Shown: positions 8,620-36,323 of the stretch, one piece after another | How positions within the stretch are numbered: the first letter of the stretch is position 1 | Layout: the number at the start of each line of letters is the position of its first letter | IMG/VR virus record: IMGVR_UViG_3300040751_001413 | Location: 1-36,362 of that record | Reading direction: 5' to 3' (one strand) | Origin: a virus | DNA: 36,362 nucleotides | Notes under the pieces: model-generated | The model's input: only the letters and a program-made list of their open reading frames with translations | The model's database searches: none | What the model was told of the DNA's origin: nothing | Program-made: the position numbers and the translations under genes

Positions 8620-9180
8620 ATGTTGAATAAAGATCAAATATTAAAAAACAAAAATAGGTTATTAGAAACCTCTGACAAGTATGGGGTTTTTACTCCCGAA
8701 CTTAGGGAGTTTTTAGGTGATGACCTTTTTACATCTCCCGCATCAACATCCTTAGACATGTATGGTGCATATCCGGGTGGTTTAGTAGAACACATATTAG
8801 TTGCATCAAAATACGCAGTCAACGTCAACAACATTTTACCTGAGAGATTACAACAAGATGTCTCAAGTATCTTAAAATGTACCATTCTATCTCAAATAGG
8901 TAAGGTTTTTTTATTTAAACCGAACGAGAGTGAATGGCACAGAAATAAATTAGGTAAAATGTATGAATTCAATGACGAACTTATTTCAATGAGAGTGGGG
9001 GAAAGATCTTCATATTATTGTTCTAAGTACGGTGTTGAATTAACAGAAGAAGAGTTCCAAACAATCCTAAACTCTGATAAGGGTGATGATGATTTACAGT
9101 CAAAATATCACTCAACACCGTTAGCACAAATCGTTAAACAAGGATTTGAGTTAGCAATATTCGATCAAAAAAATGGATGA
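8620..9180 (+). CDS. HD-domain-like protein with degenerate metal site
   Basis: A 186-residue protein. GAYPGGLVEHILVASKYA (about residues 49-66) matches the first His region of HD-type phosphohydrolase-like phage proteins, and YHSTPLAQIVKQG (about 163-175) resembles their C-terminal helix. The place where the HD dipeptide is expected reads LSQIGK (about 90-95) instead of LHDIGK, so the key His-Asp metal ligands are missing. It may be inactive or use other ligands. An AAAGGA lies eight bases before the ATG, one of few Shine-Dalgarno-like sequences here. It overlaps the dUTPase gene by 8 bases. Nucleotide metabolism is suggested by that neighbour only. Confidence 0.6.
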   Translation: MLNKDQILKNKNRLLETSDKYGVFTPELREFLGDDLFTSPASTSLDMYGAYPGGLVEHILVASKYAVNVNNILPERLQQDVSSILKCTILSQIGKVFLFKPNESEWHRNKLGKMYEFNDELISMRVGERSSYYCSKYGVELTEEEFQTILNSDKGDDDLQSKYHSTPLAQIVKQGFELAIFDQKNG

Positions 9181-9793
9181 GAGAACTCTAAAGGAATATC
9201 TTAAGAAATTAGAGAATTATGAGAGGATTTTAGGTGAAGACGAGGACGGGGAAGTTGATCAAGAATTCATTAGTGAGATAGAAAGTACGTTAGCATCATT
9301 AACACACGAAGCGACGAGTCATGTGAATCAAGAACAATTCGGTACCACCAATTCACAATACTCCATTAACTGTAAAATTAAAAAGGTACATCCCGACGCA
9401 ATTATTCCGAAATACTCTAAAGAGGGGGATGGTTGTGTTGACCTACACTGTGTTTCGTTTGAAATGAACGAAAACAAAAACCAAGTCACATACAAAACAG
9501 GGATATCTGTCGAGATACCCAATGGGTTTGTTGGGTTGGTTTTCCCAAGATCTTCAATAAGAAGAACCACACTATCATTAAGTAACTCGGTGGGGGTTAT
9601 CGATAGTGGTTATAGAGGTGAAATTATGGCAACGTTTAATATAAACGCATCTAATGATTCAACTATTTACGAAGTTGGAGATAGAGTATGTCAATTTATG
9701 ATCCTACCCTACCCTAAAATAAACTTCCAAGAAGTGGACAATCTAAGTGAATCCTCAAGAGGTGAGGGTGGATTTGGATCCACGGGAAATTAA
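9173..9793 (+). CDS. dut: dUTP diphosphatase (dUTPase) with N-terminal extension
   Basis: This enzyme hydrolyses dUTP to dUMP and pyrophosphate, keeping uracil out of phage DNA and feeding dTMP synthesis. All five trimeric dUTPase motifs are visible: GCVDLHC (87-93), PRSSI (125-129), NSVGVIDSGYRGEI (138-151, with the catalytic Asp), GDRVCQFMI (169-177) and the C-terminal RGEGGFGSTG (196-205). The core is of usual length, but about 65 extra acidic residues precede it; they look helical and unrelated to dUTPase. The ATG overlaps the upstream HD-like gene by 8 bases. The dCMP deaminase at 21680-22120 acts in the same dUMP-supplying route. Confidence 0.93.
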   Translation: MDERTLKEYLKKLENYERILGEDEDGEVDQEFISEIESTLASLTHEATSHVNQEQFGTTNSQYSINCKIKKVHPDAIIPKYSKEGDGCVDLHCVSFEMNENKNQVTYKTGISVEIPNGFVGLVFPRSSIRRTTLSLSNSVGVIDSGYRGEIMATFNINASNDSTIYEVGDRVCQFMILPYPKINFQEVDNLSESSRGEGGFGSTGN

Positions 9794-9811: not shown

Positions 9812-10510
9812 ATGGCCCAAAGAAAAAGTAGTGATAGAAGATTAACACACAAACAAAGAATAAGAGAGATTTTTAAGAAACCAAGAGAGAAATTCTTAAC
9901 CGATTCTCAAAAGGAGTATTGGGATGTGTTAGGTGATAACGAAATCACATTATGTTTTGGCCCTGCGGGTGTGGGTAAGTCATATATTGCAATGAAAAGG
10001 GCGGTCGAGTTACTCCATGACGACAATAACAAATACGAGAAGATTATTATTGTTAGACCTGCGGTTGAAGCGGAAGAAAAGTTAGGATCTCTACCCGGTG
10101 GTTTAGAGGAAAAATTAGATCCATATATTTTTCCCTCATACTATCTTTTAAATAAAATTATCGGTAAGGAGTGTCGAGAAAAATTAAAAGATGAAGGTTA
10201 CATCGAAGTGGCGGCACTTGCCTACATGAGAGGTTGGAATGTTGACAACACAATTCTCGTATTTGAGGAAGCTCAGAATGCAACACCAGCACAATTAAAA
10301 TTACTTCTAACACGAATCGGGTTTAATTCTAAATTCTTCATATCAGGAGACTTAGAACAATCTGATAAGTTTAAAGATAAAACAAAGAGTGGTCTATATG
10401 ACGCTAAAGTGAGGTTAAGTGATCTCAAGAATGTTGGGGTATACGAATTCACAAACAGTGATATTGTAAGGAATCCAATAATCAGTGAGATTTTAAAGAG
10501 GTACGATTAA
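9812..10510 (+). CDS. phoH: PhoH-like P-loop ATPase
   Basis: A 232-residue PhoH family ATPase. The Walker A motif is GPAGVGKS (50-57), followed by the family segment IIIVRPAVEAEEKLGSLPGG and, around residues 145-170, ILVFEEAQNATPAQLKLLLTR, where EEAQN replaces the usual DEAQN Walker B. A further ISGDLEQSD motif matches the family. PhoH proteins are common in marine phages; proposed roles in RNA metabolism or phosphate stress are not settled. The N-terminus is basic (MAQRKSSDRRLTHKQR), which may help nucleic-acid binding. It sits 18 bases after dut, in the same run. Confidence 0.9.
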   Translation: MAQRKSSDRRLTHKQRIREIFKKPREKFLTDSQKEYWDVLGDNEITLCFGPAGVGKSYIAMKRAVELLHDDNNKYEKIIIVRPAVEAEEKLGSLPGGLEEKLDPYIFPSYYLLNKIIGKECREKLKDEGYIEVAALAYMRGWNVDNTILVFEEAQNATPAQLKLLLTRIGFNSKFFISGDLEQSDKFKDKTKSGLYDAKVRLSDLKNVGVYEFTNSDIVRNPIISEILKRYD

Positions 10511-12480: not shown

Positions 12481-13265
12481 TGAAAAATATAACAGTTATT
12501 TTACCTGTTCACACCCTTGAGGGTGAATACAAAGAAATGTTATCTAAGGCTGTGACATCGGTAGAACAGTTCTATGATGATGTGGTTTTATCTATTGTGG
12601 GACCTAAAGAGGTAACAGGAAATTTAAAAGGAGAAGGGTTATCCGATAAATTGGAAATTACCCTTATAGAAAATACAGGAGAAACTGACTTCTGTTCACA
12701 AATCAATAGAGGTATTGAAGAATGTGGAACAGAGTGGTTTTCAATATTTGAGATAGATGATGAATATACACCTAATTGGTTATCATCATTTAATGGATAT
12801 AAAACAATGTTTGAAGATGTTGATGTCTTTCTACCTGTTGTTAAGGACATCAATTCTGAGGGTAAATTCTTAAACTTTACCAACGAATCAGTATGGGCGT
12901 ATGGGTTCTCAGAAACTCAAGGTGTCTTAGATAATGAGATTCTATTGGACTACCAAAACTACCAAACAAGTGGTGGGATTTATAGAACTGAAGTGGTAAA
13001 AGAAAATGGATCATTTAAGGATAATATCAAACTCACTTTTAGTTATGAGTTCTTACTAAGACTAACACATAATGGAGTTAAGATTGCGACTATACCTCAA
13101 ATCGGATATAGACACGTAAACTTTAGAGAAGGGTCGTTATTTTGGTTGTATAAAAATGATGATTCACTAAAATTGAATACCGAAGAACCTAAGTTTTGGT
13201 TAGAAACCGCGAAGAAAGAATTCTTCTTCAAAAATAAACGAGAAGTAGAATATGTAGAAAGTTAA
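12480..13265 (+). CDS. GT-A fold glycosyltransferase (GT2-like)
   Basis: A 261-residue protein opening NITVILPVHTLEGEYKEML, a typical GT2 first strand. The acidic metal/donor motif is FSIFEIDDEYTPNW (about 87-100), matching the DxD region, and YQTSGGIYRTEVV (about 161-173) matches the later acceptor-side region. GT2 enzymes transfer sugars from nucleotide sugars with divalent metal. The substrate cannot be read from sequence. It is coupled by TAATG to the GT-B gene upstream and by TAATG to the late sigma factor gene downstream, so glycosylation and late transcription genes share one transcript. Confidence 0.75.
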   Translation: MKNITVILPVHTLEGEYKEMLSKAVTSVEQFYDDVVLSIVGPKEVTGNLKGEGLSDKLEITLIENTGETDFCSQINRGIEECGTEWFSIFEIDDEYTPNWLSSFNGYKTMFEDVDVFLPVVKDINSEGKFLNFTNESVWAYGFSETQGVLDNEILLDYQNYQTSGGIYRTEVVKENGSFKDNIKLTFSYEFLLRLTHNGVKIATIPQIGYRHVNFREGSLFWLYKNDDSLKLNTEEPKFWLETAKKEFFFKNKREVEYVES

Positions 13266-13966
13266 TGCCAAGAAAGCGAACCCAAAAAATGTACTTTGGG
13301 GAGGAGCAAGAACAAGCGGTAGTACGATATTTAGAATCCGAAAACGAAGAAGAAAAGAATAAGATATTCAATGAATATTTAAGAGAACCTCTCAAAATAA
13401 TGGTGGAAAGTATAATCCGCCGTTACAAACTTTATAGGAAAGATTACGAATTCGAAGAGATTCATACTGATACTATGTCATTTTTAATGACTAAGATTAG
13501 TAAGTTCGATACTACTAAAAACTATAAGGCATACTCATATTTTGGTACCATTTGTAAAAACTACTTAATGGGTACCATACAAAAAGACCAAAAAGAAATG
13601 AATAGGTCTGTTTCCTATGAAGATATCTCCACGAGATTAGAAGATAGGGCAGACCTTTCCTACATTATAGATGAGGAGATCATTGATTATAAGGACGTAG
13701 TTAATAAATTGACCGTTGAATTAGAAAAGTTTGTTGACGAAGAAGAACTTAATCAAAATGAACGCAAATTAGGGTACGCCCTTATTGAGGTTTTCAGCAA
13801 TTTTGAAAAGATATTTCAAATCGGCGAAGGTAATAAGTTCAATAAGAACTTAATATTACTTTCTCTACGAGAAATGACATCCCTTACAACTAAGGAAATT
13901 AGAGTGGCAATGAAGAAGTACAAGAAACTCTATGAAGTACTTAAGTTGGATTTCATAAATTATTAA
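13265..13966 (+). CDS. T4 gp55-like late-transcription sigma factor
   Basis: A 233-residue sigma-70-type protein. Residues about 40-110 form a recognisable region 2: EPLKIMVESIIRRYKLY, then FEEIHTDTMSFLMTKISKFD and KAYSYFGTICKNYLMGTI, with the F-D-x-x-K and A-Y-S-Y-F patterns of phage gp55-like sigma factors. A C-terminal helical segment (about 205-228) could be a reduced region 4. T4 gp55 directs host core RNA polymerase to the late promoter TATAAATA. The recurrent TATTTATA elements in this window are its natural candidate targets, which is inference. The last residues (LKLDFINY) are hydrophobic and acidic and might dock on the sliding clamp as in T4. It is coupled to the GT2 gene by TAATG. 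Confidence 0.82.
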   Translation: MPRKRTQKMYFGEEQEQAVVRYLESENEEEKNKIFNEYLREPLKIMVESIIRRYKLYRKDYEFEEIHTDTMSFLMTKISKFDTTKNYKAYSYFGTICKNYLMGTIQKDQKEMNRSVSYEDISTRLEDRADLSYIIDEEIIDYKDVVNKLTVELEKFVDEEELNQNERKLGYALIEVFSNFEKIFQIGEGNKFNKNLILLSLREMTSLTTKEIRVAMKKYKKLYEVLKLDFINY

Positions 13967-19373: not shown

Positions 19374-19808
19374 ATGAAGAAACTAAAAGACGTTATTAAA
19401 AAACATTTAAAGAATCTACAAGAAGAAAGAACTGAAAACTATATGTTCTTCAGTAATTTAAAACAAATTCAAAGACAGTGTCAAATTCTTTTAGATTTAG
19501 ATCCTATGGTTATTGAAGATATTCTTCAAAACGGTCATGATTGGGCCGATGATCATATTACCGTCGCAAAAGAAAACGTAGATCAAGTAATGGATTTCTT
19601 GATGAACGAAACTAAAGACGAGTTACACGAAGGAAAGAAAAAATCAAATAAACTATGTTCAAGAGGTATTTCTGCCGCTAAGTCGAAATTTGATGTTTAC
19701 CCATCAGCATATGCCAACGGTTATGCGGTACAGGTATGTAAAGGTAAAATCAAAGGATTAGATGGTAAGAAAAAATGTTCAGGTTCTTACTGTAAAAAGA
19801 AGAAGTAA
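19374..19808 (+). CDS. Cys-rich phage protein with VYPSAYANGYA motif
   Basis: A 144-residue protein. I place the start at the ATG at 19374, not at an upstream in-frame TTG inside the previous gene. The N-terminus MKKLKDVIKKHLKNLQEE is an amphipathic helix ending LQE, a capsid-targeting-like signal. The C-terminal half has KLCSRGISAAKSKFDVYPS and AYANGYAVQVCKGKIKG, then CSGSYCKKKK. This Cys/Lys-rich VYPSAYANG motif recurs in T4-like marine phages in my memory; its function is unknown. It is coupled by TAATG to the next gene, which has related Cys-rich modules. Confidence 0.7.
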   Translation: MKKLKDVIKKHLKNLQEERTENYMFFSNLKQIQRQCQILLDLDPMVIEDILQNGHDWADDHITVAKENVDQVMDFLMNETKDELHEGKKKSNKLCSRGISAAKSKFDVYPSAYANGYAVQVCKGKIKGLDGKKKCSGSYCKKKK

Positions 19809-20905
19809 TGAAAGTACAATGTAAAGGTTGTGATTGGAATTGGGAATTATCTGATGGGGGTAATGATCCATATGTGTGCCATAAATGTGGTAAAGACAAT
19901 ACAGACGATTACATTAAAAAAATACGAATTAGTAAAGAAGACCAAAAATATATAGAAGAGTGTCTCGCAAGTGGTGAAGTTCTTAAGGAAGATTTAGGTC
20001 GTTGGTTTAAAGAGAAGTGGGTTGACGTATCAAGGAAGATTGATGGTAAACACCCACCATGTGGACGTAAGGATGCGGACGGTGATAAATCAAGAAAGGG
20101 GTACCCAAAATGTAGACCCTCTAAAAAGGTTTCTAAAGAAACCCCAAAAACAACATCCTCTTATAGTAAGAAAGAAAAAAGAAAAATGACACGTCAAAAA
20201 AGACGTGCCGAGAGAAAAAGCAATAAAAAAGGTAAGGGTAATACCCCAACCTATACAAGTATTGATGAGAATAAAATTATTTCATTAGTGTTTAATAACA
20301 TAGGTGTTAAATCATTAGATTTAAATTATCCAACTTTAAAAACAATAAATGAATCTAAGGTTTCTTTAAGTGAGGGATTAAATTATCATTTAGAGAATAA
20401 ATTACCCATCGTAGAGAACGTATATAGGATCTATTCTAAAGAGTTTTTTGAACTTTATAATGAAGTACGTCAGTTACATGAAGAAAACGTCTTAGAAGTC
20501 ACCGGAGTAGACCTACAGTTAATTCAAACTGATTTAGGTCGAACAGGTGTTTATGAAGGTGAAGAAGTTTATTTAGACATCCCATTTGTAGAGAATGAAG
20601 AAGAATATTTAGTTGAAGCAAAGTATCGTGGTAGAAATGTTAAACTAAATAAACCATTTAGAACCCCCGGTGGACCAAAGAAATTTGCGGTATACGTAAA
20701 GAACCCTAAAACAGGTAACATTAAAAAGGTGACCTTTGGTGATCCTAATTTAAGGGTTAGAAATAATAATAAATCTGCCGCAAAATCATTTAGGGCGAGA
20801 CACAACTGTAAGGATAAAAAAGACCGTACTAAAGCGGGATATTGGAGTTGTAATATTTCTCGTTATAGAAAGGCATTAGGTATTAAATCTTCAAATCCTT
20901 GGTAA
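19808..20905 (+). CDS. Modular Zn-ribbon and Cys/Arg-rich phage protein
   Basis: A 365-residue mosaic. Residues 1-30 form a zinc-ribbon with Cys5, Cys8, Cys24 and Cys27. Then comes RWFKEKWVDVSRKIDGKHPP followed by CGRKDADG and GYPKCRPS, a small module seen in phage and bacterial proteins (DUF5872-like). A basic linker (about 105-145) and a helical acidic part (about 150-255) follow. The C-terminal 80 residues have KFAVYVKNPKTGNIKKVTFG, SFRARHNCKDKKDRTKAGYW and SC, a module I have seen attached to head-maturation proteins of marine T4-like phages. It probably binds metal and nucleic acid. A packaged or virion role is inference. Confidence 0.65.
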   Translation: MKVQCKGCDWNWELSDGGNDPYVCHKCGKDNTDDYIKKIRISKEDQKYIEECLASGEVLKEDLGRWFKEKWVDVSRKIDGKHPPCGRKDADGDKSRKGYPKCRPSKKVSKETPKTTSSYSKKEKRKMTRQKRRAERKSNKKGKGNTPTYTSIDENKIISLVFNNIGVKSLDLNYPTLKTINESKVSLSEGLNYHLENKLPIVENVYRIYSKEFFELYNEVRQLHEENVLEVTGVDLQLIQTDLGRTGVYEGEEVYLDIPFVENEEEYLVEAKYRGRNVKLNKPFRTPGGPKKFAVYVKNPKTGNIKKVTFGDPNLRVRNNNKSAAKSFRARHNCKDKKDRTKAGYWSCNISRYRKALGIKSSNPW

Positions 20906-21411: not shown

Positions 21412-21720
21412 ATGGAAGAGAAGTTACCCTTCAGAGAAGTCCTTTCATCAACCTACAGTATTCGTACTTTCCCACCCGACACCAAAGAAACTGACCTTAA
21501 GTGGCATTTTGATAACGAGGATAGGGAAATCACTTTCTTACACAATACCGATTGGAAATTTCAAATGGATAATCAATTACCTATTGACATACACGAAGGT
21601 ATGGTGATTAATATTCCCGAAGGTGAATACCATAGAATTATTAAAGGTAGTGGGGAGTTAAAAGTTAAAGTTAGAAAACTTAATAAAACTCGACTTCTAC
21701 CCCACACTCAGAAAACATAA
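21412..21720 (+). CDS. Cupin-like small protein
   Basis: A 102-residue protein with a single cupin-like beta-barrel pattern: LKWHFDNEDREITFLHNTDW, then FQMDNQLPIDIHEGMVINIP and GEYHRIIKGSGELKVKVRKL. The second cupin motif PxGxxHR appears as PEGEYHR; the first metal-binding motif is incomplete. Small cupins occur in many phages without known role; sugar or metal binding is typical of the fold. Its last 41 bases overlap the 3' end of the dCMP deaminase gene on the other strand. Confidence 0.6.
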   Translation: MEEKLPFREVLSSTYSIRTFPPDTKETDLKWHFDNEDREITFLHNTDWKFQMDNQLPIDIHEGMVINIPEGEYHRIIKGSGELKVKVRKLNKTRLLPHTQKT

Positions 21721-22120
21721 GTAAAGATCTTTCCTGTTGTTCTACCCATTTTTCTTTATTCTTGGTGGTACAATTTTCTTTACACACTACTTTCTTCACA
21801 CCCGCCTGTATCAGACCACGGGCACAATCCATACACGGTAACCCTGAAGTTAAATAGACTGTGGATCTTTTAAGTGAAACCCCTATACGTGCGGCATTAT
21901 AAATTGCGTTTCTTTCGGCATGTTCAAACCAAAAATATTTTTCAGGTCTTTCCTGTCTTTCATCTAAAGAGTCGTTTAAACCTCTTGGGAACGAATTATA
22001 CCCCGTTGTGAGTATCTCTTTATCTTCACCCACAATTACCGCACCTATTTGTGTGTTAATGTCTTTAGACTTCTCTTTTACTTGTTCCGCAATACTGATA
22101 AAATATTCTTTCCACTCCAT
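21680..22120 (-). CDS. dCMP/deoxycytidylate deaminase
   Basis: A 146-residue zinc enzyme that turns dCMP into dUMP, the precursor of dTMP. The catalytic HAE (67-69, in FEHAERNAIYNAA) and the zinc ligands PCMDC (95-99) are present, along with the N-terminal NTQIGAVIVG and GYNSFPRG motifs. The length is normal for phage enzymes. A strong terminator just upstream separates it from the capsid gene, and an AT element ends one base before its ATG, so it is a unit of its own. It works with the dUTPase at 9173-9793. The last 41 bases overlap the convergent cupin-like gene. Confidence 0.92.
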   Translation of the reverse strand: MEWKEYFISIAEQVKEKSKDINTQIGAVIVGEDKEILTTGYNSFPRGLNDSLDERQERPEKYFWFEHAERNAIYNAARIGVSLKRSTVYLTSGLPCMDCARGLIQAGVKKVVCKENCTTKNKEKWVEQQERSLLMFSECGVEVEFY

Positions 22121-22204: not shown

Positions 22205-23926
22205 TTATCTTAAAGTATCTAAGTTGAATGTTTGTAGACCCGCTACGTTAATTACACCAAAGTATCTGTTGTTGACCATCTTCTTAGCGTATCTCGTCAT
22301 GATACCTTTGATCGGTGTAAAGTTGAATGGGTTATACATAGTAGGAGTAAGTTGTAATGGTACGTATGGTGCGTAAATGTAACCAGCGTCCAATAATGAC
22401 TTACCTTTGTGTCCTACTAAGATCTTACCTGCAGGGAAGTAAGGATCTCTATACACTTGATATCTTCCCGCTAAAGTACCAACTTTCTCAATACCCATGT
22501 TGTACTGATCTTGTTCTGCACCTGCGTTAGATACGTGGAAGTACTCAAGGTCATCGAATACTGCTGAAACTTCAGAAGAAACAACGATCCAATTGGCACC
22601 ACCTCTTAGTGTAGTTTTATGGATTTGAGCCGATAATTGGTTAATTTTAGTAATTAACGTTTGGTTCCAATCCTTTTGAGTGTAACCTTGTAATGTTGCG
22701 TTGTTCGCTCCACCATATTTCCACTCATTGTAGTCCCACTTTAAGTTCCAAGCTGCACCTTTTCTTAAGTCTCTTAAGATTTCTCTATCCACCTCAGCCG
22801 CGATTTGCTCAGATAACAATGCTGTTAACTCAGCCTCAGCGTCAATGTTGTGGAATGCAGATACATCCTGAGCCAATTCAGGAGACCAGCTCGCTCTTAG
22901 TTTTCTTTCAGTTACCGATACAGTTACTGACTCTAAGTCAAAAGTAACCTCACCGATCTCATCTTCGAATTCTAAAGATGCGTATTGTCTGTAAGTTAGA
23001 GCGAAATCAGATGCCGCTTCAGTACCTGCTGCACTGAATTTTGAATAACCTGTTGATCCGTAAGTCTCAACATCTACATTTAGGTACATAACACCATTCT
23101 TATCTACGATGTCAGGATAAGTACCTGTAACACCGGCTTTTCTACTACCGTATTCTACGATACCTGAACCGTACTTCTGAGTTACAACGTTAAATGGTAA
23201 TTTAGCTCCACTGTTAATGTCTGCGTGTTTGATCTCTAAAGACGCTAAGAACTCTTCAGTGTCCATTTCGTTACCGTTAGGTCCAACAATTTTACCTGAA
23301 CCTGAGTTAGTAAATCCACTAACTTTTACGATAATAGATGAATAATCACCTACAGCGATAGTCGTCGCATCAGTTGCCTCACCATCAGCAAATGTTACTA
23401 CTGAAACACCTGTTAATGACTGTTCAGTATAGTTACCTTTAGAGTAGTCATATAGACCTTCACCTGCGTCATCACTTTCTTCATAGAATCTATCGTAAAG
23501 GTTTGTACCACCCGCACCATAGTTTGCACTTGAAGGAGAACTTGCACTTGGAGAACCAAATGGCTCAGAGTGAGTACCACCTGATGTTCTTTCTTGAATT
23601 TTAGGTACAAAGTAGAATAGTTTACCAATTGGTAAGTTCATAGCTTGTACAGAAACGATATCGTTTGCCAATAATTTAGAGAATACTCTTCTAATAATTG
23701 GAAAAACAACTGTTTCGAATGAACCTGATGCGTCAGACACAGCAGCTTCGTTAATTAGATAAGACGCTTGGTTTTCATATAACTGAGCGATGTTATCTTT
23801 TTGATGTCCATTAAGTCCCTCTAAGAAACCTAAGTCATCCCATTTTTTGATGGTATCTTCCTTGATAACTCTTAGGTGTTTTAACCCGATGTTACCAACC
23901 ATACCACTTTCTAATAATGCTCCCAT
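22205..23926 (-). CDS. Major capsid protein (T4 gp23-like)
   Basis: A 573-residue T4-type capsid protein, somewhat longer than T4 gp23. The N-terminal shell segment has FETVVFPIIRRVFSKLLAND and VSVQAMNLPIGKLFYFVPK; the C-terminus has YAPYVPLQLTPTMYNPFNFT and KGIMTRYAKKMVNNRYFGVI, all gp23 hallmarks. The middle (about 120-300) is a Gly/Ser/Thr-rich insertion. YLINE followed by AAVSD (residues 56-65) fits a gp21-type cleavage site after Glu60, close to the position where T4 gp23 is cut. It lies 33 bases after the scaffold gene with no TATTTATA of its own and ends at a strong terminator, so it is probably co-transcribed with the scaffold. Confidence 0.95.
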   Translation of the reverse strand: MGALLESGMVGNIGLKHLRVIKEDTIKKWDDLGFLEGLNGHQKDNIAQLYENQASYLINEAAVSDASGSFETVVFPIIRRVFSKLLANDIVSVQAMNLPIGKLFYFVPKIQERTSGGTHSEPFGSPSASSPSSANYGAGGTNLYDRFYEESDDAGEGLYDYSKGNYTEQSLTGVSVVTFADGEATDATTIAVGDYSSIIVKVSGFTNSGSGKIVGPNGNEMDTEEFLASLEIKHADINSGAKLPFNVVTQKYGSGIVEYGSRKAGVTGTYPDIVDKNGVMYLNVDVETYGSTGYSKFSAAGTEAASDFALTYRQYASLEFEDEIGEVTFDLESVTVSVTERKLRASWSPELAQDVSAFHNIDAEAELTALLSEQIAAEVDREILRDLRKGAAWNLKWDYNEWKYGGANNATLQGYTQKDWNQTLITKINQLSAQIHKTTLRGGANWIVVSSEVSAVFDDLEYFHVSNAGAEQDQYNMGIEKVGTLAGRYQVYRDPYFPAGKILVGHKGKSLLDAGYIYAPYVPLQLTPTMYNPFNFTPIKGIMTRYAKKMVNNRYFGVINVAGLQTFNLDTLR

Positions 23927-23959: not shown

Positions 23960-25282
23960 TTATTTTAATTTTGACATCAAATCCTTCATTCTCTTGAATT
24001 GAGGACTCTCATACGCTTTGGCTTCTGAAAGTACTTCTTGAGATGAAGATGTTGTCGGGGTTGATGCGATCTTATTAACGACCGCTTCAGTAACATTTTT
24101 CTTAGATCCTAACTCACCCGCGATTGTTTTATAGGTTGATTTAGATTCAGTTAAAGATGTGACAGAGTCAAATCTTTGCAAAATGTTTAATTTCTCTTGA
24201 CGAGTAGTAGAATGTTCGGTGAACAATCTCGTAGCGTATGCCAAGTTAGCGTTGAACACTGCAACTTCGTTTAGTTTCTCTTTAAATAGAACTAACGCTT
24301 TCTTGTATTCTGCGTTTCGTTTCTTTAAAGTTTCAACCTCTTCGTTAATTGCACCTGCCTTGTACTTAGTTTTAGACTTAATACCGGCTCTGTCCATACC
24401 ACCTTTGTCACCGTGTACGTTTGATTTAGTTCTTGCCGCTTCATCAACTTCCTCTTCGTGAGAATCGTCCTCTTCAGAGACTTCTTCGGATACTTCTTCT
24501 TCCATATCATCTTCAGATACTTCTTCTTCCATTTCCTCAGATACTTCTTCAGACACTTCTTCGTCGACTTCTTCAGACACATCTTCTAATTCGATTTCAT
24601 AGATTGAGTCGTCATCTTCTTCAGACACTTCTTCTTCCATAGAGTCACCACATTCTTGGCAATCCTCTTCTTCAGATACTTCTTCGTCGTAGCCACCTTC
24701 GTGTGCTTCTTCGTCGTGTCCTTCAGCGACTTCACCCTCTTCGTCATCTAATTTGATGATGTACTCTTCGTCTCCGTCTTCGAGTTCAACGTTATTACCA
24801 TCTCTCTTCACAACGATTCCGTCTTCGTCTCCCATTTTCTTGAAAACTGCTAAGACTTCTTCGTCAGAAGCGTTGGTCATGTCGAGTACGTCCTCATCAT
24901 CTTCCTCATCATCCGCTGCGGGTAATTCTAAATCATCGTCACCATCTAATGATAGTTCGTCAGATTCGTCGTCACCTTCATCGTCTAATTCGGCATCCAT
25001 TTGATCAGGATCCTCGTCATCCGCTGGTTCGTCGTTTATCGAAGCTTCGTCGTCATTTCCTTCCTCGTCATCAAATTGTTCCGAGACCGGCATATCATGT
25101 TCGTCTTCTGTAATAGGAGTTTCGTTACCCTCAACTACCTCTTCTTCCATAGATTCTTTAAGCACTTCGTTTAGTTCTTCCTTCATAGTTGAAGCAAGTA
25201 TACCTTTTGCGTTTGCTTTAACTGCCTCCTCAAGATCTTGTACTTGAAGCAATGCTTGTTCTAAAATGGATTCTTTGCTCAT
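23960..25282 (-). CDS. Acidic prohead scaffold protein (T4 gp22-like)
   Basis: A 440-residue extremely acidic protein. Residues about 45-290 are mostly Asp/Glu, including repeated EEVSEE units; one CQEC pair interrupts this. The C-terminal part (about 300-440) is helical and includes EVETLKKRNAEYKKALVLFK and FNANLAYATRLFTEHSTTRQ, which match the coiled core of T4-like gp22 scaffolds, and it ends FKRMKDLMSKLK. The position between protease and capsid genes is the T4 order. The scaffold forms the prohead core and is later degraded by the gp21 protease. A TATTTATT element lies 20 bases upstream of the ATG. Confidence 0.88.
   Translation of the reverse strand: MSKESILEQALLQVQDLEEAVKANAKGILASTMKEELNEVLKESMEEEVVEGNETPITEDEHDMPVSEQFDDEEGNDDEASINDEPADDEDPDQMDAELDDEGDDESDELSLDGDDDLELPAADDEEDDEDVLDMTNASDEEVLAVFKKMGDEDGIVVKRDGNNVELEDGDEEYIIKLDDEEGEVAEGHDEEAHEGGYDEEVSEEEDCQECGDSMEEEVSEEDDDSIYEIELEDVSEEVDEEVSEEVSEEMEEEVSEDDMEEEVSEEVSEEDDSHEEEVDEAARTKSNVHGDKGGMDRAGIKSKTKYKAGAINEEVETLKKRNAEYKKALVLFKEKLNEVAVFNANLAYATRLFTEHSTTRQEKLNILQRFDSVTSLTESKSTYKTIAGELGSKKNVTEAVVNKIASTPTTSSSQEVLSEAKAYESPQFKRMKDLMSKLK
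24444..24693 (-). repeat. Degenerate EEVSEE-coding repeat in scaffold gene
   Basis: Short-period repeat visible on the plus strand as CTTCTTCAGATACTTCTTC-type units, coding for EEVSEE and EEVDEE. It is low-complexity coding sequence, so reading frames on the opposite strand here are artefacts. Confidence 0.7.
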
Positions 25283-25364: not shown

Positions 25365-26048
25365 TTATCGAGATAAAAAACTATCTAACTTACCCATCAA
25401 TCTTGACATTCTTTCATCAACAATAGGTTTCTCCTCAATAGATTCTTCGTATTTCTCTCTATCAGATGGGTCTTGGAATACATATGCACCCGGTGTTGAT
25501 GGTGATGATACTAAATCAAAACACACCAATTCAAAATCCTCCTGTACAATATTTTGACCTTTCTCCGATTTAAGAGATCCTACACCACGAGATGAGATAC
25601 CAAGTGTTACCCCGTTCATGAGTAACATTGCTGCTTGGTCACCTTTAGTACTTACTATACCTGATTTCTTCCATCCGGGTGATAGTAGTAATTTTATTTT
25701 ACCCATGAGTATTTTACCGTCCCACCATGTCTCAGTGATAACGTGTGATACTCTATCTAAATCAATTAATGAAGATGAAGGGTGGTTAAGTTCGTTTAAC
25801 GCACTTCCCTTACTAATTACGTTTTGATACTTGTCTACTTCCTTTTTAAGAACACTTTCAGGGTATATTCTACCATTCTTATTAGGTGTATCGTATTTCT
25901 GTAGGACCGCATATAATTCAATATCCTCTGAAAAGTCTATACCTTTCATTTCGGATATCACGGTTTTATTCTCTTCAGGTGAGATGAACCCCGCGTCGTA
26001 TTCTATAAGAATTCCTTTCCCCGTTTCTTTTGGACCAAGTACTTTCAT
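25365..26048 (-). CDS. Prohead core protease (T4 gp21-like)
   Basis: A 227-residue serine protease of the herpes-assemblin/gp21 type that removes the scaffold and trims capsid proteins in the prohead. The expected motifs are ELNHP with His89, and GISSRGVGS with the catalytic Ser near 152-153; the acidic EDFELVCFDLVSSPSTPGA segment follows as in the family. YDTPNKNGRIYP near residues 52-63 is also typical. Length matches T4 gp21. The C-terminus (MSRLMGKLDSFLSR) resembles that of the scaffold. A TATTTATA element lies 19 bases upstream, and scaffold and capsid genes follow on the same strand. Confidence 0.93.
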   Translation of the reverse strand: MKVLGPKETGKGILIEYDAGFISPEENKTVISEMKGIDFSEDIELYAVLQKYDTPNKNGRIYPESVLKKEVDKYQNVISKGSALNELNHPSSSLIDLDRVSHVITETWWDGKILMGKIKLLLSPGWKKSGIVSTKGDQAAMLLMNGVTLGISSRGVGSLKSEKGQNIVQEDFELVCFDLVSSPSTPGAYVFQDPSDREKYEESIEEKPIVDERMSRLMGKLDSFLSR

Positions 26049-26089: not shown

Positions 26090-26515
26090 TTATTTTTTCT
26101 TTTTGTGGAAATTGTATAATAATTTGTTATCCAAACACGTATCGATTATCTCTCTTAGGAGTTTATCCATATCGTTTTTAAGGGTCTTATCTTTAATATT
26201 AATCTGTTCTAACACATAAAGAGTGATCTCTATATTCATAAAAGATCTTTTCTCTTTAGTGATTCCCTTTGTTCGGATATCTAAATCAACGATAGATTCA
26301 GGTCTGAATAGACCCACACCTAAGTTATAGATAAGTTTTTTTATTTTATTTCTTGAGTTTCTTACGATGGGATCGAAGTCCCCACAACTATGATCAGGTT
26401 CCAACCAAGAACTCAAGTTTAGATATATTGTTTTTAAATCTTTGTGGTTTATTGTGCCATACCCAATTTTAACGTTTTTGTGATCCCCTAATGGGATGTA
26501 ACGTCCTAATTTCAT
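26090..26515 (-). CDS. Phage protein in head cluster, function unknown
   Basis: A 141-residue protein starting MKLGRYIPLGDHKNVKIGYG, with SSWLEPDHSCGDFDPIVRNS in the middle and a helical basic C-terminus ending in a run of Lys. It lies where T4 carries small prohead core genes (67/68), but its sequence does not show the acidic composition of those. NLSSWLEPDHSCGDF and the compact size could suit a neck or baseplate-wedge component. An AT element (TTATATTTTAT) lies 35 bases upstream. I recognise no family with confidence. Confidence 0.65.
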   Translation of the reverse strand: MKLGRYIPLGDHKNVKIGYGTINHKDLKTIYLNLSSWLEPDHSCGDFDPIVRNSRNKIKKLIYNLGVGLFRPESIVDLDIRTKGITKEKRSFMNIEITLYVLEQINIKDKTLKNDMDKLLREIIDTCLDNKLLYNFHKKKK

Positions 26516-26550
26516 TTAATACATACTTTATTCTCTTTTAATGGTGTTTA

Positions 26551-26561
26551 ATAAAATATAA
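26551..26561 (-). promoter_or_regulatory. TATATTTT-type element before 26090-26515
   Basis: TTATATTTTAT on the minus strand, 35 bases before the ATG at 26515, in the 101-base divergent gap shared with rpsU. Confidence 0.3.
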
Positions 26562-26595
26562 AGAAAATTATTGAAAAAAACAAATTTTTTTATTA

Positions 26596-26603
26596 TATTT
26601 ATT
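26596..26603 (+). promoter_or_regulatory. TATTTATT late-promoter-like element (phage rpsU)
   Basis: TATTTATT on the plus strand, 13 bases before the ATG of the phage bS21 gene, suggesting late expression. Confidence 0.58.
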
Positions 26604-26616
26604 GATATTAAGAATT

Positions 26617-26808
26617 ATGCTAATAGTAAAAGTCAAAAAAGGAAATATTGAAGGTGCGATAAAAAAATTGCGCTCCAAGGTCAGGAACACTAAACAATTA
26701 ATCAAACTGAGAAAAGAGAAGGAATATACTAAACCTTCAGTAAAGAAGAGACTTAAAAAACAGAAAGCGGTTTATATTCAAAAACTACGGGATCAAGAGT
26801 GTCATTAA
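26617..26808 (+). CDS. rpsU: Phage-encoded ribosomal protein bS21
   Basis: A 63-residue basic protein that aligns along its length with bS21: MLIVKVKKGNIEGAIKKLRS, then a helix, the R-K-E-x-E-Y-x-K-P-S turn (about 32-41) and a C-terminal helix KKRLKKQKAVYIQKLRDQE. The MLIxxVK start and the A-V-Y-I-Q-K-L ending are those of Bacteroidota bS21. Tyr53 sits where, from memory of the Flavobacterium johnsoniae ribosome, bS21 Tyr54 helps hold the anti-Shine-Dalgarno end of 16S rRNA. I chose the ATG at 26617; an upstream in-frame ATT is not needed. There is no Shine-Dalgarno. It is the only plus-strand gene between 22120 and the right edge, placed among head genes. Confidence 0.88.
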   Translation: MLIVKVKKGNIEGAIKKLRSKVRNTKQLIKLRKEKEYTKPSVKKRLKKQKAVYIQKLRDQECH

Positions 26809-26844
26809 AAAAAACCCCCACTAAAGTTATACAATAGTGAGGGT
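26807..26844 (-). terminator. Terminator after 26882-27616
   Basis: On the minus strand ACCCTCACTA pairs with TAGTGGGGGT (ten pairs, one mismatch) around an 11-base loop, followed by eight T. It overlaps the stop codon of the convergent rpsU gene and could also slow transcription from that side. Confidence 0.8.
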
Positions 26845-26881
26845 CATTACCTCTAAGGTAGCCGCCGTAAAGGAAATATTC

Positions 26882-27616
26882 TTAACCTAATAAACCATCT
26901 AATAAATCTTCTAAACGATACAGGTTATACTTACTGTAATTCATTTCTGAAATCTCTTTTCTAACCATATCCGCCTTGGTCTTGAATTCTTTGTCTGATC
27001 CAACCAACTCATCTAACTTAGAATTAATACTTTCGTGTAATGTTTTAGTTTTCTCCTCAACCTCTGACTGAGTTAAACCTAAGATAGACTTTAGTTTCGT
27101 TTTATCTTCTTCAGATAATGTTTTATCATAACTAACATTGAAGTTATTCACTAATACTGAATTCAATAAAGATTCATTTACTCCCTGTTCAACCTCTAAT
27201 GTGTCTGATACCTTATTTTTAGTTAGGTGTTCTACTAACGACTTCTTAGCAACAACCTTTTCAGAAATGTTACCCAATTTATCAGGACACGATAAAACGT
27301 CTAAAGACTCGTACAATGGGTTTTCTGTTTTTTCAACACCTTTTAATGATTCATTTAAATCAAAAACTGATTTACTAACATCATGATGTTTATCCTTTAG
27401 TACTTTTGATAATTCCTCAACGTAAAGTTGTGCGGTTTCTTTATCATCGAAACTCATCGTCTCAATGTCTTCGTACAAAGAATACATTTCCTTTAAAACC
27501 GTACTATTCATGATAGGTTTAAAGTATTTTTTAAGATTTTCTTTGAAATCTTTCTTACCGTATGATTCAGTTAACTTAACTAAAACCTTATTTTTTACAT
27601 GTCCAAATGTTGCCAT
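26882..27616 (-). CDS. Helical phage protein after portal; head-core candidate
   Basis: A 244-residue, almost entirely helical and charged protein. Examples are LNESLKGVEKTENPLYESLD and KADMVRKEISEMNYSKYNLY. It starts two bases after the stop of the portal gene, with no promoter element between them, so the two are co-transcribed. In T4 the small prohead core genes 67 and 68 lie between portal and protease, which makes a core or head-assembly role plausible, but sequence similarity is not visible. A strong terminator follows. The family is not recognised. Confidence 0.7.
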   Translation of the reverse strand: MATFGHVKNKVLVKLTESYGKKDFKENLKKYFKPIMNSTVLKEMYSLYEDIETMSFDDKETAQLYVEELSKVLKDKHHDVSKSVFDLNESLKGVEKTENPLYESLDVLSCPDKLGNISEKVVAKKSLVEHLTKNKVSDTLEVEQGVNESLLNSVLVNNFNVSYDKTLSEEDKTKLKSILGLTQSEVEEKTKTLHESINSKLDELVGSDKEFKTKADMVRKEISEMNYSKYNLYRLEDLLDGLLG

Positions 27617-27618
27617 AT

Positions 27619-29454
27619 CTATTCTTGTATAATGTCTTTGAGTTTATTCTCTATCTCATAAATATTCTTTTGTGCCTTATCGACATCAAAAAGATCATCA
27701 AAATCTTGAGATTCATCACCTAACATACCTAATATCTTAGATTTCTTAGTTGATGTTTTGGATTCAGATAATGGTTCGTCTCCACCAATATCAGGTGGTG
27801 GGGGTGATCCTCCTCCAATATCGCCACCTAAGTCTCCACCGGCATCACCTCCTTCTGCAGGTGACATCGAATCTTCCATTGCTTGTCTTTCCTCTTCAGG
27901 AATTCCGTACTTCTTATCTACCTCATCAAATACCCCTGTTCTCTTAATGATGTTTTGGGTAATACCTAACTCAGCACCCAACGCTCTCTCAAGTCTCTGT
28001 TGTTGTAGATCAAGAATAACATCGTTATCACTCATACCAAGTATGTTCTTCTTAGCCCATGTATGTGAAACAGGTTGGATACCGATCTGAGATTGATCTG
28101 AAGTCGCATCTTTATATAGAGTAATCTTCTCTTTCCACTGTTCAATCTTAAGTAAATCTGATTGTGCCGATGGATTTGTAAGTGATAATGTGAAATTATC
28201 TAACTCATCCTCTAAACCTAATAGGTAGAGATGTACTAATGCAATTTTATTTAATTCTTGTATTAGGGATTTTTGTACTCTGTTGATTGTTCTTGCAAAA
28301 CGTATATCCATAAGTGCAAGACTCTTACCCTCACCAACGATCTCTTCAAAACCTAAGAACGCCTTTGGTATTCTAAGTGCTGCGAGAAGTTTCTTTTGGA
28401 TATATTCGATATCGGCAATTTCACCTAAGTTCTGAGCTCCCGGTAAAGTTTCAATTGGAGATGACTGTGATGGATCACGAACAGGAATGAAATAATCTTG
28501 ATCAACCGCCATTTGGTTGTATCTCATATCTACCTGACCATTTCTTTGATCGACAATCTGATCTCTTTTAAACTTGTTGGCGACACGTTGTACGTACGCC
28601 TCGATATCTTTATCATCCATGTTACCCACGAACACTTTGAATACCCTTCTTTCAGGTGCCCTCGAAGTTCTATAGATTAACATAGCATCCTCCGCAAGAA
28701 GTAATTGTTTCCAAATACGTCTTACTTTATCTAACATAGAAGTTCCATAAGGGAGTTTTCTATCATCACCCAATAATCTAAAGTGTGCGACTTCCCACGC
28801 TTGGAATTCCATATCCTTATTCTTCCAAGTAAATCTTAACTCTCTACTTGGTAACTGAACACCTGCAGATGGTTCTGATTTGTGTACATGAGATGCGGCA
28901 CCTTCATGTCTTTCAATTTCAATATTGGGTAACTGTTGACATCCAACCACACCTCTTTCAGGATCTATTTTTAGATAAACAAAATTATCCCCATACTTTG
29001 CCAAACCTCTACACCACATTTGTAGGTTAGTGTTAATGTCAAGTACGTTATTAAAAAGATCTTCTAATATGTTTCTAACTCTTTTAGATTCTGAATATAC
29101 GGTTAGTATTTGACCCTTTTCTGAAAGTGTCGTAGATTCCTCTGAATAGATATCTAAAGCCGCAGATATCTCAGGAGTAAATTCCATTGATTCATAATCG
29201 TAATATGCTGCCAACCTATTTGGTTCGTAATAAACCGATTGATTATATAGGGACTGATCCAATTTAGTCCACTTATCCGCAATGTATTGTGATTGTTGTC
29301 TTTGTAGAAGTTCTCTCTCGAAATCCTCTTTACTATCTGTTTTTAACAGTTTGTCTCTATCAAACTTATACTGCGGAGGGGTTGACGGTTTTTCCGTTTG
29401 GAAACCGAACACCTTCGTCAATCTTTGATAAACTGTCAAATTTTCTTGAGCCAT
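27619..29454 (-). CDS. Portal protein (T4 gp20-like)
   Basis: A 611-residue T4-type portal protein that forms the dodecameric ring for DNA entry and exit and starts prohead assembly. Typical segments are YYEPNRLAAYYDYESMEFTP, LDIYSEESTT, WCRGLAKYGDNFVYLKID, AHFRLLGDDRKLPYGTSMLD and APERRVFKVFVGNMDD, then PKAFLGFEEIVGEGKSLALM. The C-terminus (about 530-575) is an Asp/Gly/Pro-rich linker followed by a helix (YEIENKLKDIIQE). The length is a little above T4 gp20. A TATTTATT element ends three bases before the ATG. It follows the terminase gene directly; the T4 tail sheath and tube genes normally between them are absent here. Confidence 0.94.
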   Translation of the reverse strand: MAQENLTVYQRLTKVFGFQTEKPSTPPQYKFDRDKLLKTDSKEDFERELLQRQQSQYIADKWTKLDQSLYNQSVYYEPNRLAAYYDYESMEFTPEISAALDIYSEESTTLSEKGQILTVYSESKRVRNILEDLFNNVLDINTNLQMWCRGLAKYGDNFVYLKIDPERGVVGCQQLPNIEIERHEGAASHVHKSEPSAGVQLPSRELRFTWKNKDMEFQAWEVAHFRLLGDDRKLPYGTSMLDKVRRIWKQLLLAEDAMLIYRTSRAPERRVFKVFVGNMDDKDIEAYVQRVANKFKRDQIVDQRNGQVDMRYNQMAVDQDYFIPVRDPSQSSPIETLPGAQNLGEIADIEYIQKKLLAALRIPKAFLGFEEIVGEGKSLALMDIRFARTINRVQKSLIQELNKIALVHLYLLGLEDELDNFTLSLTNPSAQSDLLKIEQWKEKITLYKDATSDQSQIGIQPVSHTWAKKNILGMSDNDVILDLQQQRLERALGAELGITQNIIKRTGVFDEVDKKYGIPEEERQAMEDSMSPAEGGDAGGDLGGDIGGGSPPPPDIGGDEPLSESKTSTKKSKILGMLGDESQDFDDLFDVDKAQKNIYEIENKLKDIIQE

Positions 29455-29500: not shown

Positions 29501-31279
29501 TTAAAGTTGTTTAGATTTACCACCAAACAACCACGAGTACTCTTGGTACTGTTCTCTCGATAAATTATTGTTTGAGGGGTTGTTTGGTTGTCCGTCCATT
29601 GACATTGAACCCACCGCATCAAACGCGGTTCCATGTGAGTAAAACGATTTTTTCGGTTCGTAGGTTCTTTCGGATAAAACCCACGAATCTAACATCGCCT
29701 TATTCGCACTATCATTTCTCTTTAATTGGGTAAAACAGATATCCCCCACATACATCGCAATTGCCATAGCCATGATAGCGTCATCATGTGCTCCTTTCAT
29801 GTGGTTTGGTCTACCATTAATATAAACAAAGGTGTTTAACTCATTAAGTAATCTTGATGATCTAACCACAAACCCATGTCTTAACTGTTCCTCAAAACTC
29901 GCAACGATTTGTGTCCTCTTATTATTAAAGTTTATACCGGGTATTTTCTCTTGCGCTTTCTTATTGTATTGCCACATATTCATGGAATTAACTCCATCTA
30001 TATATTGGTCTTTGTAACCCATTTCTTGTAGTTTACGAGAAGTTGCAATACCCATACCACCTGTTATATCTGTTGCGACAAATGCCTTATACAAAACACC
30101 CCACTTATACACGATAGACGCTAAGTCGTCGGGTGGTATCTTACCAACATATTCCGCAACTTGTTCTCTTTCGTCAAAATCAATCACACAGATAGAAGAT
30201 GCATCTGCACTATCACCTCTTGAAACGTCGACACCCATTATATACCTATGACCTTCCACAGGTTCTTTCCACATCCACATCGTGCCCTGCATGTATTTTT
30301 CTACAGGGTCCTTTATCATCGTTTTTCTAATTCTTTCCTGAATGTCATTTGGGATAACACCATCCCCTGAACCAAGGAAATCACACTCCAATTCCTGTGC
30401 GATTTTTCTCTTATCGTATTTGAATTTTTTAGCCATGTTCTCAAACCAATGAGAATAGGGTTTGTATCCTTCTTCGAGTAGTTCTTCATAACGTTGCCAT
30501 CCTTCCTCTAAAGTAATCTCCCCGTCATTATACTGTTCCCTATTTAACATGTAATGAATGATATCATCAACCTTTAACCACTTAAGGTCACCTGCGTAAC
30601 GAGGATCTTTAAACCACCTTAAATCGGTGATTTTAAAGTCATTCATTCCCCTTAACGCTTGGTCATATACACCATAGTATATTGGATCATATCCGTTTGG
30701 TGTGGAAATGAGAATCACCTTACCACCTGTTGATAAGGATGCCATACACGCAGCCCAAAAATCTTCACCCGCTTCAATATATGCCGCCTCATCAAATACA
30801 AGTACTGTTGGTGTGTATCCACGGAGTGCATCCGCAGATGTCGCAACCGCCTTTACCTCACAACCGTTATTCATTCTATAACGACTCTCCGAATTTTTAT
30901 CAGGTGAAAACCCAACATTTATCCACTCAGGCCATTGATCTAAGAATCCACGTATTTTGTTCGCCATCTCGATGGCCGTATCTCTTTTATTCGCAATGAT
31001 CAATATCCTCTCAGGATTGTCAGGACTTGCGGTTTGTATCTTCTTGGATAACCACGCCGCTGTCACTGTAGATACACCCGCCTGTCTATATTTACGAGTG
31101 ATATTTTCGTTATAGTTATCATAATCATTAATCAATTCAATTTGATCAGGAAATAACTCTAACGGTACATACTTCTTTTGTGTGTTATCGTATGTTTGTA
31201 GATATGTCTTCAACGCATATGGAGTATCTTTCATGATCTTGGCATACTCCTTAAGTTGTAATAGTTTGTTCTTATCCAT
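29501..31279 (-). CDS. Terminase large subunit (T4 gp17-like)
   Basis: A 592-residue DNA-packaging motor with N-terminal ATPase and C-terminal nuclease. The Walker A region is RQAGVSTV (65-72), which lacks the usual Lys of GKT but matches the variant loop of some T4-like terminases. Walker B is VLVFDEAAY (159-167), and the coupling motif is ISTPNG (191-196). Nuclease acidic residues appear at IMGVDVSRGD (Asp351), ATDITGG (Asp404) and HDDAIMAMA (498-506). It lies alone between a terminator and the portal gene, behind a TATTTATA element four bases from its ATG. Confidence 0.95.
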   Translation of the reverse strand: MDKNKLLQLKEYAKIMKDTPYALKTYLQTYDNTQKKYVPLELFPDQIELINDYDNYNENITRKYRQAGVSTVTAAWLSKKIQTASPDNPERILIIANKRDTAIEMANKIRGFLDQWPEWINVGFSPDKNSESRYRMNNGCEVKAVATSADALRGYTPTVLVFDEAAYIEAGEDFWAACMASLSTGGKVILISTPNGYDPIYYGVYDQALRGMNDFKITDLRWFKDPRYAGDLKWLKVDDIIHYMLNREQYNDGEITLEEGWQRYEELLEEGYKPYSHWFENMAKKFKYDKRKIAQELECDFLGSGDGVIPNDIQERIRKTMIKDPVEKYMQGTMWMWKEPVEGHRYIMGVDVSRGDSADASSICVIDFDEREQVAEYVGKIPPDDLASIVYKWGVLYKAFVATDITGGMGIATSRKLQEMGYKDQYIDGVNSMNMWQYNKKAQEKIPGINFNNKRTQIVASFEEQLRHGFVVRSSRLLNELNTFVYINGRPNHMKGAHDDAIMAMAIAMYVGDICFTQLKRNDSANKAMLDSWVLSERTYEPKKSFYSHGTAFDAVGSMSMDGQPNNPSNNNLSREQYQEYSWLFGGKSKQL

Positions 31280-35951: not shown

Positions 35952-36323
35952 TTAGGATACGGATATGGTTCTTTGAGTATTTTTCTTTTTTAGTCTTGGG
36001 ATTTTAACACTTAAAACCCCATTTTCCACTTTTGCCTCGATCTTTTTATCATTCACATCTTCAGGTAAAGTGTAAGTACGTTCAAATGAACCAACGAATC
36101 CTTCCGACTCTTCGGGTTTCTCGTATGAAATCTTAAGTAAGTCCTCCTCAACAACTATAGTAAAGTCATTTTTAGTTAGTCCCGGCACTACAAAGTCCAA
36201 AGAGTATCCTACTTCATTTTCCGATTTATGGACATTTACAAATCCACTTTGTGTTGGTTGAGTCTTTGATTCGAAGAACTCATCAACAAATCTAATAAAT
36301 GGGTCGTTTCTAAATAAAATCAT
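35952..36323 (-). CDS. Small heat-shock protein (Hsp20/alpha-crystallin)
   Basis: A 123-residue Hsp20 family chaperone. The alpha-crystallin domain (about 27-112) has VGYSLDFVVPGLTKNDFTIV, SFERTYTLPEDVNDKKIEAK and the hallmark NGVLSVKIPR (the G-x-L motif). The N-terminal arm (FRNDPFIRFVDEFFE) is short. Hsp20 proteins bind unfolding proteins without ATP; they are frequent in T4-like phages and may help capsid folding. The ATG lies 39 bases from the window edge with no clear promoter element visible there. A strong terminator follows. Confidence 0.92.
   Translation of the reverse strand: MILFRNDPFIRFVDEFFESKTQPTQSGFVNVHKSENEVGYSLDFVVPGLTKNDFTIVVEEDLLKISYEKPEESEGFVGSFERTYTLPEDVNDKKIEAKVENGVLSVKIPRLKKKNTQRTISVS

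Follow-up and report, generated by a model that had tools for sequence, protein, structure and literature searches.

Why would a tailed phage keep a gene for the ribosomal protein bS21 among its head genes, and on the strand opposite to all of them? The question is raised by the 36,362 nucleotides analysed here, hereafter the window, a linear 36-kb virus record (IMG/VR IMGVR_UViG_3300040751_001413) that is itself a fragment. Ribosomal proteins of phages are common in water samples, and their mode of action has so far been a matter of hypothesis. For bS21, neither the arrangement nor the main hypothesis is new: Chen et al. 2022 (PMC9723584) reported the same strand, the same neighbours, the aromatic residue, late expression, and the idea of ribosome takeover, together with the transcription of bS21 of this phage kind along with structural genes. 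The first-pass annotation of the window, which recognised that phage bS21 proteins are known and suggested a late step of ribosome remodelling, thus agrees with a hypothesis for which late-expression data exist. The features on which the following analysis depends are these:

13265–13966, plus strand: T4 gp55-like late sigma factor (PF04542 region 2; PHROG late sigma factor, E 7e-4; PDB gp55, E 2.5e-4)
22205–23926, minus strand: major head protein (PHROG match)
23960–25282, minus strand: 440-aa protein called as scaffold by position; TATTTAT 21 nt 5' of ATG
25365–26048, minus strand: head maturation protease; TATTTAT 20 nt 5' of ATG
26090–26515, minus strand: 141-aa protein, divergent neighbour of bS21 and candidate for bS21_CN of Chen et al.
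26541–26560, minus strand: promoter-like element TATATTTTATTAAACACCAT of the 141-aa gene, conserved, and similar in relatives with and without bS21
26595–26602, plus strand: ATATTTAT, putative late-type promoter element of bS21, 14 nt 5' of ATG
26617–26808, plus strand: bS21 coding sequence (63 aa; Pfam match; Tyr53 equivalent to Tyr54 of Flavobacterium johnsoniae)
26807–26845, minus strand: intrinsic terminator (hairpin and U8) of the terL-portal-hyp244 unit (-17.6 kcal/mol, z -4.2, by folding)
26882–27616, minus strand: 244-aa protein, convergent neighbour of bS21
27619–29454, minus strand: portal protein; TATTTAT 4 nt 5' of ATG
29501–31279, minus strand: large terminase; TATTTAT 5 nt 5' of ATG

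The large terminase, portal, protease, and major head protein, all on the minus strand, match tailed-phage PHROG families, and family searches returned no match for the 440-aa protein in the scaffold position. bS21 is the sole plus-strand gene among the head genes: terL, portal, the 244-aa and 141-aa proteins, protease, scaffold, and major head protein (MCP) all lie on the other strand, as the first-pass annotation had stated. With the terminator placed at the stop codon of bS21, antisense transcription of bS21 from the late operon should be prevented. A sigma-70 consensus scan around bS21 performed no better than on shuffled sequences; a terminator match from that scan was rejected, as it sits inside the bS21 gene, and the gene-end hairpin was found by folding instead. 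The 141-aa protein has a predicted alpha/beta model (pLDDT 81), whose sole resemblance in a fold search is to an unnamed myovirus protein, the search against the PDB giving no reliable match; its gene and the homologues carry a conserved TATATTTTAT..AACACCAT element, with or without bS21. Elsewhere in the window are genes for PhoH (9812–10510), dUTPase (9173–9793), dCMP deaminase (21680–22120), an Hsp20-like protein (35952–36323), and a protein with a DUF5872 domain (19808–20905).

Regarding the protein itself, the stop-free reading frame translates into 63 residues, MLIVKVKKGNIEGAIKKLRSKVRNTKQLIKLRKEKEYTKPSVKKRLKKQKAVYIQKLRDQECH, which match Pfam Ribosomal_S21 (PF01165) at 43 bits (cut-off 27, E 3.8e-11), and among solved structures the closest are 9i5v and 7jil, both bS21 chains of Bacteroidota type, the latter from the F. 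johnsoniae ribosome to which PMC9723584 refers. The description of a full-length bS21 of Bacteroidota type inside the head cluster was therefore correct, as was the placing of a C-terminal tyrosine at the site linked to sequestration of the anti-Shine-Dalgarno sequence: in the alignment to the 7jil chain, phage Tyr53 corresponds to F. johnsoniae Tyr54, the aromatic residue of Bacteroidia-type bS21, and the numbering differs by one since a residue is missing from the N-terminal loop of the phage protein. The predicted model has two helices (11–36 and 42–62) joined by a turn (pLDDT 88); used as a Foldseek query it gave no significant match, and all eight matches returned were mitoribosome chains.

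The gene is under purifying selection, with synonymous changes far exceeding non-synonymous ones: dN/dS is 0.03 against relative L003 (19.3 synonymous and 3.7 non-synonymous differences) and 0.08 against L006, the comparisons with L218 and L221 having been left out on account of an unaligned insertion. Selection, together with the constant opposite strand in relatives, shows that the gene is real. In all 100 distinct phage bS21 proteins of this locus, residues K39, S41, and R45 are unchanged and an aromatic residue occupies position 53 (Y in 95, F in 4, H in 1). The C-terminal core is common to phage and host proteins, whereas at positions 5, 7–9, 17, 20, 22–23, 26–27, and 29 (window numbering) the residues of phage and host hardly overlap, the host set behind this signature being mostly Flavobacteriaceae; the host pattern FDKTGT, for instance, becomes V..TKQ in the phage proteins. 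The tree of phage and host bS21 that the first-pass annotation had called for, computed from 64 columns only, places all phage proteins on one side of a branch with SH-aLRT 99.6, apart from the 24 hosts. A host-type protein in a phage might be explained as a recent, functionless capture of host rpsU, but the low dN/dS values, the deep separation from hosts, the phage-specific signature in 100 proteins, and the complete lack of the host rpsU leader leave this explanation with hardly any probability.

When would the protein be made? The motif TATTTAT precedes 13 ORFs of the window, including terL, portal, protease, and scaffold, and 13 of its 19 sites in the window fall in upstream stretches, against 0.6 expected; the enrichment recurs in a 66-kb relative (20/50 sites, 1.7 expected) and in a 291-kb relative (98/292 sites, 8.8 expected). 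The T4 counterpart of this element acts as a -10 box. In the 291-kb relative (L162-L176), the distance between TATTTAT and ATG peaks at 4–7 nt and again at 12–16 nt; if TATTTAT is a -10 box, the first peak would mean transcripts with almost no leader, and the two preferred distances suggest many near-leaderless mRNAs in this phage. The description of the late genes as perhaps leaderless is thus possibly right, to judge from spacing. The probable reader of the elements is the gp55-like sigma factor, whose homology is weak but consistent in three libraries, and which is present in all eight long relatives at 55–100% identity; none was found in the bS21-less contigs described below, which are short fragments.

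Because the window encodes this sigma factor, the label of late-type element, which the first-pass annotation had given to the motif before bS21, is reasonable for the window phage, and element and sigma factor together are consistent with bS21 belonging to the late class. The label holds for the window, and relatives of its clade keep the same kind of element upstream of bS21, but it is not general: TATTTAT occurs in 35 of 92 distinct upstream stretches of bS21, in window-clade, L018-type, and L043-type genes, and more than half have no such element. The sequence TAnnTTTG, which we take to resemble the housekeeping -7 element of Bacteroidota, is found in 28 of 87 upstream stretches (1.8 in shuffles), often as TATATTTG 16–19 nt 5' of ATG, and TATATATCA in 14 of 87 (0.3 in shuffles). 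In L310, L319, L225, L240, and others, TATATTTG or a near variant stands before bS21 in place of the late element, like a host housekeeping promoter. Given these varied promoter types, the timing of bS21 may differ between relatives.

A sharper contrast with the host lies in the Shine-Dalgarno (SD) sequence. In Bacteroidota, initiation without SD is the normal state, and host rpsU has an exceptionally strong SD and is translated by ribosomes that lack bS21 (PMC9976891). For the present comparison, the 22 nt before each start were paired with the assumed Flavobacterium 16S tail (GGAACACCUCCUUUCU), and host rpsU genes were fetched using two solved host bS21 sequences. All 80 Flavobacteriaceae rpsU genes examined have an extended SD, with energies from -17.5 to -22.8 kcal/mol; the stretch before the window bS21 gives -1.4 kcal/mol and has no extended SD of the Bacteroidota rpsU kind, and 92 distinct phage upstream stretches have a median of -1.0 and a best value of -8.2 kcal/mol. 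These energies are not directly comparable with the -13 kcal/mol threshold of PMC9976891, which was computed by that paper's own method. The best phage values come from the clade of L026, L065, and L067–L069, in which, unlike other phages, a short AGGAGA precedes bS21 that might be a remnant or a regained SD. In the 291-kb relative, none of 287 ORF starts has an SD signal at -8 or stronger. The bS21 type and the SD-less starts together point to Bacteroidota as the host of the window phage. Among the host records, genome G050 (L183), from the Flavobacterium phylum sample, has two bS21 genes, one of them without SD, and L098, L117, and L130, filed under Rhizobium, Limnohabitans, and Pelagibacter MAGs, have Flavobacteriaceae-type rpsU and are probably binning errors.

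The explanation we favour, with a little more confidence than an even chance would give, is that of a replacement bS21 made late in infection, which would keep ribosomes competent for SD-less mRNAs while standing outside host rpsU autoregulation. A gp55-type promoter would probably drive late transcription of the phage gene, whose product, if incorporated as we infer, would substitute for host bS21 on the 30S subunit. There, the retained C-terminal contacts and the aromatic residue would keep the 16S rRNA 3' tail in place and the anti-SD hidden, with efficient initiation on SD-less mRNA, the class to which every phage gene and almost every host gene belongs. As the extended SD of host rpsU is missing from it, the phage gene would stand outside the host feedback on bS21 deficiency, and its mRNA would be translated by ordinary bS21-replete ribosomes. 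The main role would then be a late supply and replacement of bS21 for the mass production of head proteins. Aromatic position 53 in every phage protein, purifying selection, the late element with the gp55-like sigma factor, and the SD contrast support this reading, as does the entry of another phage's bS21 into E. coli ribosomes (PMC6375957); against it are the absence of bS21 from the locus in four lineages, considered below, and the promoter types that vary among relatives. Nor is plain replacement certain, since ribosomes with a Pelagibacter phage bS21 in E. coli, the only phage-bS21 ribosomes tested so far, show almost no activity (PMC6375957), and the phage proteins of this locus diverge strongly from those of the host in their N-terminal half.

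An effect on host rpsU is predicted as part of this account. Ribosomes without bS21, or without its C-terminus, initiate less well on SD-less mRNA and better on rpsU (PMC9976891), and a refilled ribosome should therefore favour phage mRNA in bulk and is predicted to keep host rpsU translation off. The SD contrast also invites a bolder version: that loss of the SD freed phage bS21 from host control, and that the protein, made by replete ribosomes, refills the site and shuts down host rpsU, is a proposal we put forward tentatively and consider rather unlikely as a whole; if true, the phage would take over the supply of bS21 through the host's own feedback loop.

What the locus looks like in relatives bears on all of these readings. 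In most IMG/VR relatives with bS21, the block runs MCP, scaffold, protease, 141-aa protein, reversed bS21, 244-aa protein, portal, and terminase, and the same locus lies on contigs of 251–291 kb. Scans with the portal protein, which do not select for bS21, yielded 106 loci covering the site: bS21 is present in 94, on the opposite strand in every one of them, and absent from the locus in 12, all of which keep both neighbours, the 141-aa and 244-aa genes. The remainder of these 12 contigs, which are partial, gave no S21 match. The 12 loci form four lineages on the portal tree, where strongly supported branches force four changes, and repeated loss of bS21 at the locus is the simplest reading, the root being uncertain; L070, tried as root, was unreliable for its very long branch. 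At the level of the locus, bS21 is dispensable in the lineages that lack it there and is an optional cassette. An obligate partnership of bS21 with the 141-aa neighbour was dropped as an explanation, and if the latter is Chen's co-expressed neighbour, the strict functional pair that PMC9723584 suggests for it is unlikely, because the 141-aa gene persists without bS21. Other gene contexts of bS21 are seen in L009–L017, L027–L035, and L070: in the L009 group bS21 overlaps an upstream frame on the same strand, in L027–L032 it follows a tRNA-like sequence, and in L070 it shares its strand with the head genes.

The relatives without bS21 nevertheless retain the promoter layout, with TATTTAT preceding the portal start by 4–5 nt in 12 of 12 and the terL start by 4 nt (4 of 5 with the motif), and with the element upstream of protease in 12 of 12. 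The first-pass annotation had argued from the coexistence of bS21 with SD-less, perhaps leaderless late genes to ribosome remodelling, and had named absence of the gene from close relatives with identical promoter layout as evidence to the contrary; this absence is what is found at the locus, on contigs that are partial. As the layout persists without bS21 and SD-less starts are normal in Bacteroidota (PMC9976891), the remodelling argument fails: SD-less, possibly leaderless head genes do not need a bS21 at the locus, nor do they alone point to remodelling.

The same observations weigh on the proposal of Chen et al. that the divergent N-terminal half changes the choice of the ribosome, attracting phage mRNA or disfavouring host mRNA. 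The N-terminal positions that hardly overlap those of the host beside a shared C-terminal core, and the well-supported branch that sets the phage proteins apart, speak for this proposal. However, the analysis turned up no feature peculiar to phage late mRNAs that such a ribosome could read, SD being absent in phage and host alike, the relatives without bS21 at the locus share the layout of the start regions, and the signature was drawn from a mostly Flavobacteriaceae host set, so that we regard a changed choice of mRNA as unlikely, if worth keeping in view. A role outside the ribosome, for instance in head assembly through binding of RNA or DNA by this basic protein, or as a component packed into the virion, would account for the constant position beside head genes in nearly all relatives, and packaging was also raised by Chen et al. 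(PMC9723584). Against such a role stand the unbroken conservation of the aromatic residue and of those C-terminal residues that face the ribosome, the opposite strand with its own promoter, the four lineages that keep their head genes without bS21, and the other contexts of bS21 in other phages (L009–L017, L027–L035); we consider it improbable.

The late-replacement reading, to which we return, can be approached experimentally, as the difference between a strong-SD rpsU and an SD-less phage bS21 makes a simple test possible in F. johnsoniae with rpsU reporters and bS21 depletion strains. Likewise, the natural relatives without bS21 at an otherwise unchanged locus help in judging claims that the protein is essential for late translation.

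Among known systems, the closest are the jumbo phages of Chen et al. (PMC9723584), which share the reversed bS21 between TerL/portal and protease/MCP, the two hypothetical neighbours, Tyr54 or another aromatic residue, and N-terminal divergence; the residue pattern of the window locus and the split between phage and host in the tree also agree with theirs. They differ in that theirs are myoviruses with genomes of about 293–331 kb and the window is a 36-kb fragment, in the TATTTAT carried by the window-clade, L018-type, and L043-type bS21 genes, and in that the co-transcribed neighbour was missing from their outgroups, whereas the bS21-less relatives described here keep both neighbouring genes. 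T4 late transcription offers a likeness in gp55 and its promoter TATAAATA, matched in the window by the gene for a gp55-like sigma factor and by an AT-rich element where late genes begin, TATTTATA, which has six of eight letters the same; the window element, however, often lies just 4–5 nt from the ATG, and the homology of the sigma factor to gp55 is weak (E 2.5e-4 to 7e-4). The bS21 of Pelagibacter phage HTVC008M (PMC6375957) is also phage-encoded and entered E. coli ribosomes, but belongs with another host phylum and ribosome type. Finally, host Bacteroidota rpsU (PMC9976891) encodes a member of the same protein family with the same aromatic anti-SD contact, and the phage gene differs from it in lacking the extended SD, a contrast for which no earlier report was found in the literature searched, a scope outside which preprints and most subscription papers fell. 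What is new here lies in phage bS21 genes without the rpsU leader and in a cassette repeatedly absent from natural relatives.
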